Shown in pieces: positions 11,020 to 31,750 of a stretch of 41,097 nt of DNA; position 1 is the stretch's first letter; each line of letters begins with the position of its first letter. The notes under the pieces are model-generated. The model had not been told where the DNA came from and made no database searches. It saw only the letters and a program-made list of their open reading frames with translations. The stretch is from positions 1 to 41,097 of the forward strand of contig LUZN01000046.1 in the NCBI GenBank assembly GCA_001603665.1. The letters run 5' to 3'. Source of the DNA: Bacteroidales bacterium Bact_22 (GTDB lineage Bacteria > Bacteroidota > Bacteroidia > Bacteroidales > F082). The position numbers and the translations under genes were made by a program.

Positions 11020-11103
11020 ATAGGGACAAAAACCCATTTCATTATTTGCAAACATCTGTTTATCAACATTTTACAATCGGACATTTCAAAATAATAGGGA
11101 CAA
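11020..11103 (+). repeat. Spaced direct repeat ATAGGGACAA upstream of the TPR gene
   Basis: The 10-mer ATAGGGACAA occurs at 11020-11029 and again at 11094-11103, 74 bp apart, in the 181-bp AT-rich gap between pbpC and the TPR gene. It lies upstream of the likely promoter. It could be a pair of regulator sites, or chance. Confidence 0.35.
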
Positions 11104-11141
11104 TCTATCGAGTAAGCACTTCAATCTCTTGACAGATTGTT

Positions 11142-11159
11142 TATTTTTGACTAATTTTG
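11142..11159 (+). promoter_or_regulatory. Candidate -7 boxes for the TPR regulator gene
   Basis: Two TAnnTTTG matches stand close together: TATTTTTG at 11142-11149 and TAATTTTG at 11152-11159. The signal-peptide start codon is at 11162, so the first would leave a leader of only a few nucleotides and the second would leave none. Either the gene is nearly leaderless or one box is fortuitous. No clear -33 TTTG is seen. Confidence 0.35.
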
Positions 11160-11161
11160 CG

Positions 11162-12526
11162 ATGATGAAAAATTGTTCGACATATTTGGTGTTGATAATC
11201 ATTATCTTGACGCTTGCCGCATGCAATAATCAGGCAAATAATCAAGAAAAGGCACTATCTTTGTATGAGGAAGGCGTGCGCCTGCGTGAGGAAAAGCGTT
11301 CGGAAGAGGCAGCGGAATGTTTCTTGAAGGCTTTGGAATTTTTGCAAAATAACAATACAGAGACGTTTCAGGAAACGTCTCTACGGGCACAAATCAACGA
11401 TAACCTCGGTGCGTTGTATTTAAAACACGGTATTTTCGACGGTGCATTCGACGCTCACAACGATGCATTGCAATGTTTCAAGCAGCTTGGCGATTCAACA
11501 GGCATGATGAATGCCTATCGCAACTGCGGTCGTGCGATGCGCTCACAGGAACAATATGCTTTTGCCAAACAATATTACGATTCGGCATTCTTCATCGCCA
11601 CCTTAATTAATGATAAGGCAATGTTAGGAGATCTTTATCTGGAAATCGGGCGCGACTATTACATGGAAACGGGTGATTTCGGCAAAGGCATTGAATATGT
11701 GAACCATGCATTGGAAGGCGAATTGAACGATAACGACACCGACATCGCCAACATGACCTTGGGCATCCTATATTATTATTCCAACGATTTCAACCTTGCA
11801 AAAACCTATTTGAACAAGGCCTTGCGAAGCGAACGTCCGGGACTGAAAATGTCAGTGTATCAGACGCTTTACGCCATCGCTTACTATGAGGGCGACTATA
11901 AAACGGCGGTGTATTACCAGCAACTTTCCTCCGAAAACATGCTTGAATCGGAGCAGAAACAATCGGGAGAGACTATGCAGCGATTGAAGTCGGAATATGA
12001 GCTGAAAGCCCAGAAAAACGCCATGGAGAGCCTGCACAGAAATCATAGTCTAAAATTGTATCTTATTATCGCGCTATCAATAATAGCTTTTTTAGTTATT
12101 CTATTGATAATAAAGAGAAAAATAAATGAAAACAAGATAAAGGCACTTGAAAAAGAGCTGGAGATGCGCAATAAAATCATGCTTAGCAACAAGGTGTTTG
12201 TGACGGCGAAAAACCTTGGCGAACATCTCACCTCCGATACCTTAGGCTTTGTGTTGGACGACAGCGACTGGGACGATTTCATCAGTCTCACCGACATGAT
12301 TTTCAACGATTTCTCGAAGCGGCTGCTTGCCACTTATCCTAAGCTTGGCAAGTGGGACGTTCGCATATGCTGTCTTTGCAAAAACGGTTTTTCCAACCAA
12401 GTGATTTCAATCTTATTGGATACGCAAACCGACTCGTTTTATAAAAGAAAGACTCGAATCAGGCAACAAAAAATGGAGTTGCCGAACGACAAACGGACAT
12501 TTGAAGAAATTATTAATGCGATATAA
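11162..12526 (+). CDS. TPR lipoprotein with one membrane helix and C-terminal regulator-like domain
   Basis: This protein (454 aa) begins MMKNCSTYLVLIIIILTLAACNN, a lipoprotein signal with lipobox LAAC. I chose ATG 11162 (11165 is equally possible) because an upstream in-frame start at 11129 would bury the signal. Residues 30-280 are tetratricopeptide repeats (for example SEEAAECFLKALEF and DGAFDAHNDALQCFKQLGD). A membrane helix lies at about 297-318 (LYLIIALSIIAFLVILLII), then a coiled linker (KALEKELEMRNK), then an end domain with LLATYPKLGKWDVRICCLCKNGFSNQVISILL. That tail is like the helix-turn-helix-like ends of Bacteroidetes TPR transcription regulators. I infer a membrane-spanning sensor, possibly acting on the next genes. 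A REP-like palindrome is embedded in frame at residues 66-75. Substrate and target are unknown. Confidence 0.75.
   Translation: MMKNCSTYLVLIIIILTLAACNNQANNQEKALSLYEEGVRLREEKRSEEAAECFLKALEFLQNNNTETFQETSLRAQINDNLGALYLKHGIFDGAFDAHNDALQCFKQLGDSTGMMNAYRNCGRAMRSQEQYAFAKQYYDSAFFIATLINDKAMLGDLYLEIGRDYYMETGDFGKGIEYVNHALEGELNDNDTDIANMTLGILYYYSNDFNLAKTYLNKALRSERPGLKMSVYQTLYAIAYYEGDYKTAVYYQQLSSENMLESEQKQSGETMQRLKSEYELKAQKNAMESLHRNHSLKLYLIIALSIIAFLVILLIIKRKINENKIKALEKELEMRNKIMLSNKVFVTAKNLGEHLTSDTLGFVLDDSDWDDFISLTDMIFNDFSKRLLATYPKLGKWDVRICCLCKNGFSNQVISILLDTQTDSFYKRKTRIRQQKMELPNDKRTFEEIINAI
11357..11384 (+). repeat. REP-like palindrome inside the TPR regulator gene
   Basis: This 28-bp element has the plan (AC)AGAGACG, 10-bp core TTTCAGGAAA, CGTCTCTAC. 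Eleven-base arms (AGAGACGTTTC and GAAACGTCTCT) pair perfectly around 2 bases. The outer nine-base arms match those of the two palindromes at the RAYT transposase except for the first two bases. Here it is translated in frame as TETFQETSLR (residues 66-75 of the TPR protein). Confidence 0.75.
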
Positions 12527-31195: not shown

Positions 31196-31750
31196 TCAAT
31201 AATCAACCTCGCAGCCTTCAATCCATTTCGCCACGTTATTGCCGATATAGGCAGCAATTCTATTTATTTCATCCTGGTCGCGAATGATGCGGTCGAAATA
31301 CCGCGTTTGCCACGCGAAATATGGTTGTTTTGTGCGGGCGAAACGGGTGACAGATTGTTTGAAACCACCTATCACCGTTGATAATTTACCCTGTTTATTT
31401 GCAATTTTCTGCATACATTTGTTTTTTCCGTCTGTAGAGACGCGCCATGGCACGTCTCTACAATCATCGAATGTTTTTATTATCACAATCATGTGAACAT
31501 GATCCGGCATCACAACCCATAATGGTATTTCGGCGTATGGATTATGTTTCGGAATTTCAGAAATGTTTTGATTCGCATATTTTCCTATTTCCGATAAAAC
31601 CATTGTCCCATTTTCAATTTCACCGAAAAAATGTTCGCGATTTTGCGTGCAAATTGTTACGAAATAGGCGCCACCATTGTAATCATGCCAATCCGCGCGT
31701 GCGGACGAAACACGAAATTTGTCATGAAATGTTGTTTTGATTGGTTCCAT
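31196..31750 (-). CDS. REP-associated tyrosine transposase (RAYT, Y1/IS200-like HUH)
   Basis: This 184-aa protein is a single-stranded DNA transposase of the TnpA-REP type (COG1943). The HUH metal motif is His84-Val-His86 in MPDHVHMIVI. The likely nucleophile is Tyr168 in RIAAYIGNNVAKW, the helix position of IS200-type Tyr. GGAYFVTICTQNREHFF is the usual N-terminal strand. Such proteins recognise hairpin REP sequences next to their own gene. The coding sequence itself contains one full 28-bp palindrome (31434-31461), which reads in frame as CRDVPWRVST at residues 97-106. This is inserted in the loop between the HUH strand and KLSTVIGGFKQSV. An identical copy lies 29 bases upstream of its start codon. 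No IS terminal repeats or frame damage are seen. The gene looks intact. Confidence 0.88.
   Translation of the reverse strand: MEPIKTTFHDKFRVSSARADWHDYNGGAYFVTICTQNREHFFGEIENGTMVLSEIGKYANQNISEIPKHNPYAEIPLWVVMPDHVHMIVIIKTFDDCRDVPWRVSTDGKNKCMQKIANKQGKLSTVIGGFKQSVTRFARTKQPYFAWQTRYFDRIIRDQDEINRIAAYIGNNVAKWIEGCEVDY
31434..31461 (-). repeat. REP palindrome inside the RAYT gene
   Basis: Twenty-eight bases with arms GTAGAGACG and CGTCTCTAC around a 10-bp core whose centre is GCCATGGC. Only one pair of positions (C/A at the edges of the core) breaks the symmetry. It is identical to the copy at 31780-31807 and has the same orientation. Residues 97-106 of the transposase (CRDVPWRVST) are encoded by it. 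Confidence 0.9.

Follow-up and report, generated by a model that had tools for sequence, protein, structure and literature searches.

Why should a transposase gene carry, in frame within its own coding sequence, the same palindrome that stands just upstream of it? The question is raised by a 41,097-nt stretch of DNA from Bacteroidales bacterium Bact_22 (contig LUZN01000046.1, hereafter the window), in which a gene for a REP-associated tyrosine transposase (RAYT, or TnpAREP), an HUH/Y1 single-strand nuclease, contains a 28-bp repetitive extragenic palindrome (REP). In our view the palindrome is probably a double-foot REP, a copy of the substrate of the RAYT itself, which has settled in a permissive loop before the recognition helix and is exchanged REP for REP, with loop and helix moving as one cassette. 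The analysis thus bears on how RAYTs recognize REPs and how new REP families originate.

The palindrome and its gene

The 28-mer GTAGAGACGCGCCATGGCACGTCTCTAC occurs within the gene and again just before it in the same orientation; shuffling the sequence 100 times gave a mean of 0.00 matches. The in-gene copy is located between the HUH motif (H84, H86) and helix 123-141 of the RAYT. An earlier note on this DNA had described the identical pair, with the inner copy in frame and encoding CRDVPWRVST after the HUH motif of an open reading frame (ORF), and all of this is borne out. Its further statement that there is no other copy holds within the window, where no REP copy downstream of the RAYT was found within 3 mismatches, but fails in the genome. 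The 2.06-Mb assembly (83 contigs) contains one further identical 28-mer (C4:2847), two one-base variants (C31:3200 and C68:70020) and 31 places that fit the pattern GTAGAGACGNNNCNNGNNNCGTCTCTAC with up to 3 mismatches, identical and near copies included (reversed control 0). These 31 places fall into several centre types. The palindrome GAGACG-N10-CGTCTC occurs 20 times in the same genome, 10 of them of the TTTC type; in six relatives its count ranges from 17 to 84. Reversed controls gave 0, except for one genome with 1. With copies distributed over the genome, the palindrome is a dispersed REP and not a private pair.

The palindrome has one imperfect pair, a T.G in the coding strand but a C.A in its complement, so that the coding strand is calculated to fold better than the other (RNA, -23.5 against -18.9 kcal/mol; DNA, -12.7 against -10.2 kcal/mol).

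The assignment of the gene rests on several observations. The Pfam model Y1_Tnp matches with 24.9 bits, above its cut-off of 23, while NCBIfam NF047646 (REP_Tyr_transpos) gives 65.1 bits (E 6.3e-18), below its curated cut-off of 80, and the NCBIfam IS200 equivalog model does not reach its cut-off (14.8 bits against 55). The closest solved fold is that of E. coli TnpAREP bound to REP (4er8_A; Z 12.7, 126 residues aligned, root-mean-square deviation 3.1), for which Foldseek returns E 6.2e-08. In 31 aligned sequences Q148 is invariant and W147 nearly so, and the WQ pair is therefore present along with HUH and a single tyrosine, Y168, which we presume to be catalytic, a role taken from the family. 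The protein reads YIGNNV where the TnpAREP subclass table has YIxNNP. The upstream REP and the copies elsewhere in the genome complete the setting of a RAYT. In the AlphaFold model (mean predicted local distance difference test score, pLDDT, 79.3), values are below 50 at residues 98-106, 8-11, 13-15, 110-114 and 181-184; residues 98-106, encoded by the REP, are thus predicted to form a disordered loop.

Loop palindromes among relatives

The relatives were drawn from 55 named loci and from three sets of genomes: 60 related ones (33 matching), 247 from the phylum (of which 153 had a RAYT match) and 344 from the order (111 matching). The fetched relatives are a subset of the genome-search matches. 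A set of 225 genes was obtained from 253 hidden Markov model matches by removing 23 without the HUH regular expression and 5 with short tails; 7 matches with short upstream sequence were retained. In this set and in one of 155 genes, a loop palindrome was counted at a score of at least 10. Single loci are referred to by L numbers.

Many relatives have REP-type peptides between the HUH motif and the next helix, such as RDVPWRVST, VETRHATSLP, VETQNFASLQ and VETFPETSQ. Of 155 genes, 40 had a palindrome within the loop's first 180 nt, and 4 had one in the 180 nt that come before the loop. The earlier note held that self-insertion would fail if homologues had the same residues in unrelated codons that form no palindrome. 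This is not the case: in five replicates of each control, codon-shuffled loops yielded 0-1 palindromic genes and synonymously recoded loops none. With the enlarged set and a longer loop stretch, palindromic loops were found in 87 of 225 genes, so the recurrence of loop REPs among relatives, which the note had suspected, is supported. Division of the genes into close (135) and other (20) RAYTs leaves 2 palindromic genes against 1 in the control among the latter, too few for a firm contrast. The tree of the RAYTs (146 columns, 135 rows, many open forks) served as a guide only.

The loop REPs are read in two frames, the VET frame in 47 cases and the RD frame in 27. The third frame is never used, since GTAG there gives a TAG stop. 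Peptides like VETRHGTSLQ, which the note had described as the same palindrome in the opposite sense, do come from a palindrome of this kind, with a different reading frame. Among units longer than 32 nt, lengths of 1 modulo 3 make up 13 of 14 in loops and 5 of 11 in upstream regions (Fisher p 0.021), which would follow if the gene retains only lengths that keep the frame. In L029 and L123 the palindrome of the loop is longer than the REP and takes in adjoining sequence (42 and 48 nt).

In the close relatives L020, L022 and L077 the loop palindrome has decayed while the arms of the upstream copy are perfect; the loops of L076 and the window are not decayed. The upstream copy is present in all four of these relatives, and its absence from close relatives, the other ground on which the self-insertion idea was to be given up, was not observed. 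Decay of the loop beside intact upstream copies argues against strong selection on the in-gene palindrome, or a strictly maintained regulatory hairpin.

Agreement of loop and flanking REPs

With loops selected by their palindrome alone, and a match to the gene's own flanks defined as 17/20 or better within 600 nt on either side, 38 of 87 palindromic loops matched, compared with 3.3% when flanks of other genes were used. Related genes that differ in loop REP gave 34 independent pairs and hence 68 comparisons: the gene's own flank fitted better than that of its partner in 32 and worse in 1, and 35 were undecided; at thresholds of 11 and 9 the corresponding counts were 26/3/25 and 36/2/36. A first version of this pair test (23/23) was discarded because its genes had been chosen by loop-flank agreement. 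A 20-mer match of at least 18 between loop and flank was found in 71 of 225 genes, against 1.9% with the flanks of other genes; two segments elsewhere in the gene gave 7 and 13 of 225. Where a genome yielded several RAYTs, the loop REP was closer to its own flanks than to those of the others in 16 of 22 cases, equally close in 3 and less close in 3. The idea that the palindrome is the REP of its own RAYT is thus upheld by a dispersed family whose loop type often agrees with the flanks of its own gene.

The architecture of loop and upstream REPs agrees in part. Allowing up to 3 mismatches in the first 60 genes, two or three REPs occur both in the loop and upstream in L021, L079, L084, L088, L105 and L111; L033 and L090 have two or three loop REPs without a matching upstream number, and L023, L081, L108 and L110 have one loop REP and more upstream. 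When exact arms were required in all 225 genes, 7 had at least two loop REPs, 5 of these with two upstream, and the 45 single-REP loops had an upstream count of 0 in 30, 1 in 10 and 2 in 5. L100, L122, L125 and L126 carry a loop REP of the CACGGCCGTG type (VETHGRASL) that is not closely matched within 600 nt to either side.

Protein segments that follow REP type

A segment scan over 97 genes, in which the rest of the protein was controlled for, peaked at residues ~106-138, with a lesser peak at 8-19. When single columns were ranked, loop residues 93-111 being excluded, the first seven of 150 were residues 117, 120, 129, 132, 13, 133 and 128. Residues 128, 129, 132 and 133, spaced i, i+1, i+4, i+5, lie on one face of a helix, alpha3. 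At matched divergence, the identity of helix segment 124-134 was 0.76 between genes with the same REP and 0.43 between genes with different REPs, and that of residues 113-123 was 0.65 and 0.25, respectively. Nine control segments gave differences of -0.07 to +0.05, except for residues 64-74 at +0.19. Judged from these sequences, REP type follows alpha3 and its preceding residues much more closely than it follows other parts of the RAYT. Residues 64-74 and 8-18 co-vary weakly with REP type and could be further contact regions or reflect linkage.

The relation extends to genes whose loop has no scored palindrome. There are 29 such genes with a palindrome in a flank. In 13 of them this REP is of a type that also occurs in other loops, and for 12 of the 13 the helix is nearer to that of same-REP genes. 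Decayed or different loop REPs are seen in several of the 13; five show no REP peptide in the loop (L032, L241, L268, L273 and L279), and the helix agrees in all five.

In a profile alignment, K82 of E. coli TnpAREP falls opposite residue 132 of the window RAYT; a hand register that had placed it opposite residue 128 was dropped in favor of this one. K82 lies in alpha3 and is reported to contact REP (Corneloup 2021, PMC8266576), and the same paper suggests the same helix for another group.

A switched orthologous locus

The locus L021, from the goat omasum metagenome-assembled genome RGIG2740, is orthologous to that of the window. In both, the RAYT gene stands between a phosphofructokinase gene (Pfam PFK; proteins 96% identical over 409 aa) and an amino-acid-kinase gene (Pfam AA_kinase; proteins 95% identical over 243 aa), the latter of which we read as an aspartate kinase. 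Identity between the two RAYTs is 90% (82/91) up to the loop and 83% (52/63) beyond it. The loop of L021 is wholly unlike that of the window and contains two TTTC-type REPs in the VET frame. The helix start is VIRQFKQ, shared by L111, in place of VIGGFKQ. The nucleotide break points are sharp, similarity ending after ATAATAAA and restarting at TTCAAACAATC. At the site of the upstream REP, whose flanks are largely conserved, L021 has a REP of the other type, and a REPIN of the new type lies downstream of its RAYT. Comparison of the two loci thus shows that loop REP, helix start and upstream REP have all switched.

A search of the L021 genome with the window RAYT at E 1e-5 finds one RAYT, as two pieces of a single frame; the genome has 113 GAGACG palindromes, many of those listed being of the TTTC type. 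L020 carries the REP type of the window, but its flank matches window positions 25.0-26.5 kb, another locus.

Positions and other REPs of the genome

Positions and strands of the features discussed are collected in Table 1.

Table 1. Features of the window RAYT gene and its REPs
Feature	Position	Strand	Basis
RAYT/TnpAREP gene	31196..31750	-	Open ORF of 184 aa; Pfam; fold match
HUH motif, H84-V85-H86	31493..31501	-	H84 and H86 invariant in 31 aligned sequences
Presumed catalytic tyrosine, Y168	31247..31249	-	Invariant in 31 aligned sequences
Helix 123-141 (alpha3)	31328..31384	-	AlphaFold model; residues 128, 129, 132 and 133 co-vary with REP type
Cassette region, loop REP and start of alpha3	31364..31475	-	Replaced in orthologous locus L021; protein and nucleotide alignment
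In-gene double-foot REP, 28 bp, GTAG...CTAC	31434..31461	-	In frame; encodes residues 97-106, CRDVPWRVST
Identical REP, 29 bp upstream of the RAYT start codon	31780..31807	-	28/28 match

REPs are also found in other frames. Twelve other open frames of at least 100 aa (L010, L012, L316, L317, L318, L321, L322, L324, L325, L327, L330 and L331) contain 14 of the 30 filtered REP places of the genome, two each in L316 (EPSP synthase) and L322 (THUMP-like domain). These REPs are mostly read in the VET..TS frame and resemble Rickettsia palindromic elements. When Pfam was applied to 10 of the 12 frames, 9 matched families, for example EPSP synthase, 4-alpha-glucanotransferase, ClpB-type ATPase and amidohydrolase, and L321 had no match. 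In-gene REPs are thus common in this genome, and it is their frequency across relatives that distinguishes the RAYT loop. In the window itself a second REP type (TTTC.GAAA) lies at 11357-11384, in frame within a TPR-protein ORF (11024-12523, plus strand), where it encodes TETFQETSLR. The genome's second RAYT, L333 (G000:C68:55400-57800; frame of 160 aa), carries a different REP type in its loop, GTAGGGACG, and seems to have lost alpha3, as the WQ strand comes almost directly after the loop REP.

Interpretation

We propose that a RAYT's own REP would enter a permissive loop of the RAYT gene and would there, as at other fixed sites, be exchanged REP for REP, either by RAYT activity (cleavage at the GTAG feet) or by REP-REP recombination. 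In the gene, only in-frame, stop-free products would persist. Because the two adjoin, the loop REP and the helix that reads it could be exchanged together as one lock-and-key cassette, after which the flanking REPs would be converted to the new type. No autoregulatory role is required. A more far-reaching proposal, which we advance tentatively, is that the segment from the loop to the start of alpha3 is portable, that swapping it re-targets the transposase while the flanking REPs follow, and that REP families switch rapidly in Bacteroidales by this route. If loop REP and helix do switch as a unit, natural sequences would supply both a table of helix-REP pairs and a direct swap experiment, and the cassette would explain why a REP is so often retained inside its own transposase gene without self-regulation.

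Several observations weigh against joint exchange. The switch at an orthologous locus is a single event, and 49 of the 87 palindromic loops have no match at 17/20 to flanks within 600 nt. The bias in unit length disappears when all lengths are considered, 28-mers dominating both classes (51 of 59 loop and 27 of 33 upstream units are 1 modulo 3). In 1000 permutations none exceeded the values for the helix and pre-helix segments, but none exceeded that for control segment 64-74 either, which shows the test to be lenient. There is an N-terminal signal as well: residues 8-18 have a partial r of 0.249, with residues 12, 13 and 14 ranking 8, 5 and 10, although this signal falls to +0.06 at matched divergence. 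L306 is an exception to the helix rule. Finally, since the helix adjoins the loop, hitch-hiking in local gene conversion would also produce co-variation. With one switch event and such linkage as the main rival, we infer the mechanism, including any catalysis of the exchanges by the RAYT, from the pattern of sequences.

Linkage of this kind is part of a broader alternative that we consider rather unlikely, in which the palindrome is a neutral passenger: in-frame REPs are tolerated in many genes, the RAYT loop is a permissive site near donor REPs, and the helix co-varies by proximity. The REPs in the 12 other open frames and the decayed loop copies of three close relatives count in its favor. 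It accounts less well for palindromes in 87 of 225 RAYT loops, set against 12 other frames in one 2.06-Mb genome whose total genes were not counted, for the preference of loop REPs for their own flanks over those of other RAYTs, and for the helix agreement that persists in the five genes whose loop lacks a REP peptide. Autoregulation, in which the RAYT would restrict its own synthesis by binding the REP hairpin of its gene or mRNA, might be suggested by the stability of the coding-strand hairpin (z -5.45), by the T.G pair that favors this strand and by the second REP copy just before the start codon. Given the decayed loops of L020, L022 and L077, and the 138 of 225 sampled RAYTs that have no loop palindrome at a score of 10, we regard it as improbable. 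It is hardly to be expected that the REP-encoded residues are themselves selected as protein to contact DNA or partners. RDVPWRVST is retained in L002, L020 and L076, but residues 98-106 are predicted to be disordered, peptides and frames vary widely among relatives, and many relatives have other loops. Joint exchange of loop REP and helix is the reading that we prefer.

Comparison with known systems

REPs inside RAYT genes were published in 2018, and the window gene is a further case. For TnpAREP subclass 2.4, Quentin et al. (2018, PMC6006769) describe as a unique and predominant trait the presence of in-frame REPs in tnpAREP, in general located between the HUH and Y motifs. In the literature searched, with many subscription papers outside the search, this is the sole report that we recognized. 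The window gene resembles subclass 2.4 in having an in-frame REP between HUH and the tyrosine; its double-foot REP, GTAG...CTAC, fits the form GT[AG]G...C[TC]AC, and it shares with the subclass the occurrence in Bacteroidetes and both flanking and dispersed REPs. The counted agreement with flanks, the co-variation of the adjacent helix and the orthologous switch were not found in the available text of that paper.

Coevolution of RAYTs and REPs was described by Nunvar (2010, PMC2817692). The REPtrons and RAYTs of gammaproteobacteria have in common with the present system an HUH/Y1 enzyme, flanking REPs, this coevolution and an alpha3 that contacts REP; in the portions of the two papers available to us (PMC2817692, PMC8266576), no in-gene REP was found described, and specificity was not mapped by natural swaps. 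IS200/IS605 transposons share the fold, but the score with the IS200 model is far under the cut-off. Short in-frame palindromes in protein genes are found as well among Rickettsia palindromic elements and other REPs that lie within genes (Di Nocera 2013, PMC3733652, as far as its text was available). Such elements are without a dedicated transposase, whereas the REPs described here, although also present in unrelated frames, have a linked RAYT that bears the REP in its own gene. Neither the helix-REP map nor the orthologous cassette switch was found in the literature searched, which is weak evidence, as many subscription papers lay outside the search. Compared with these systems, the joint change of target REP and recognition helix looks new.
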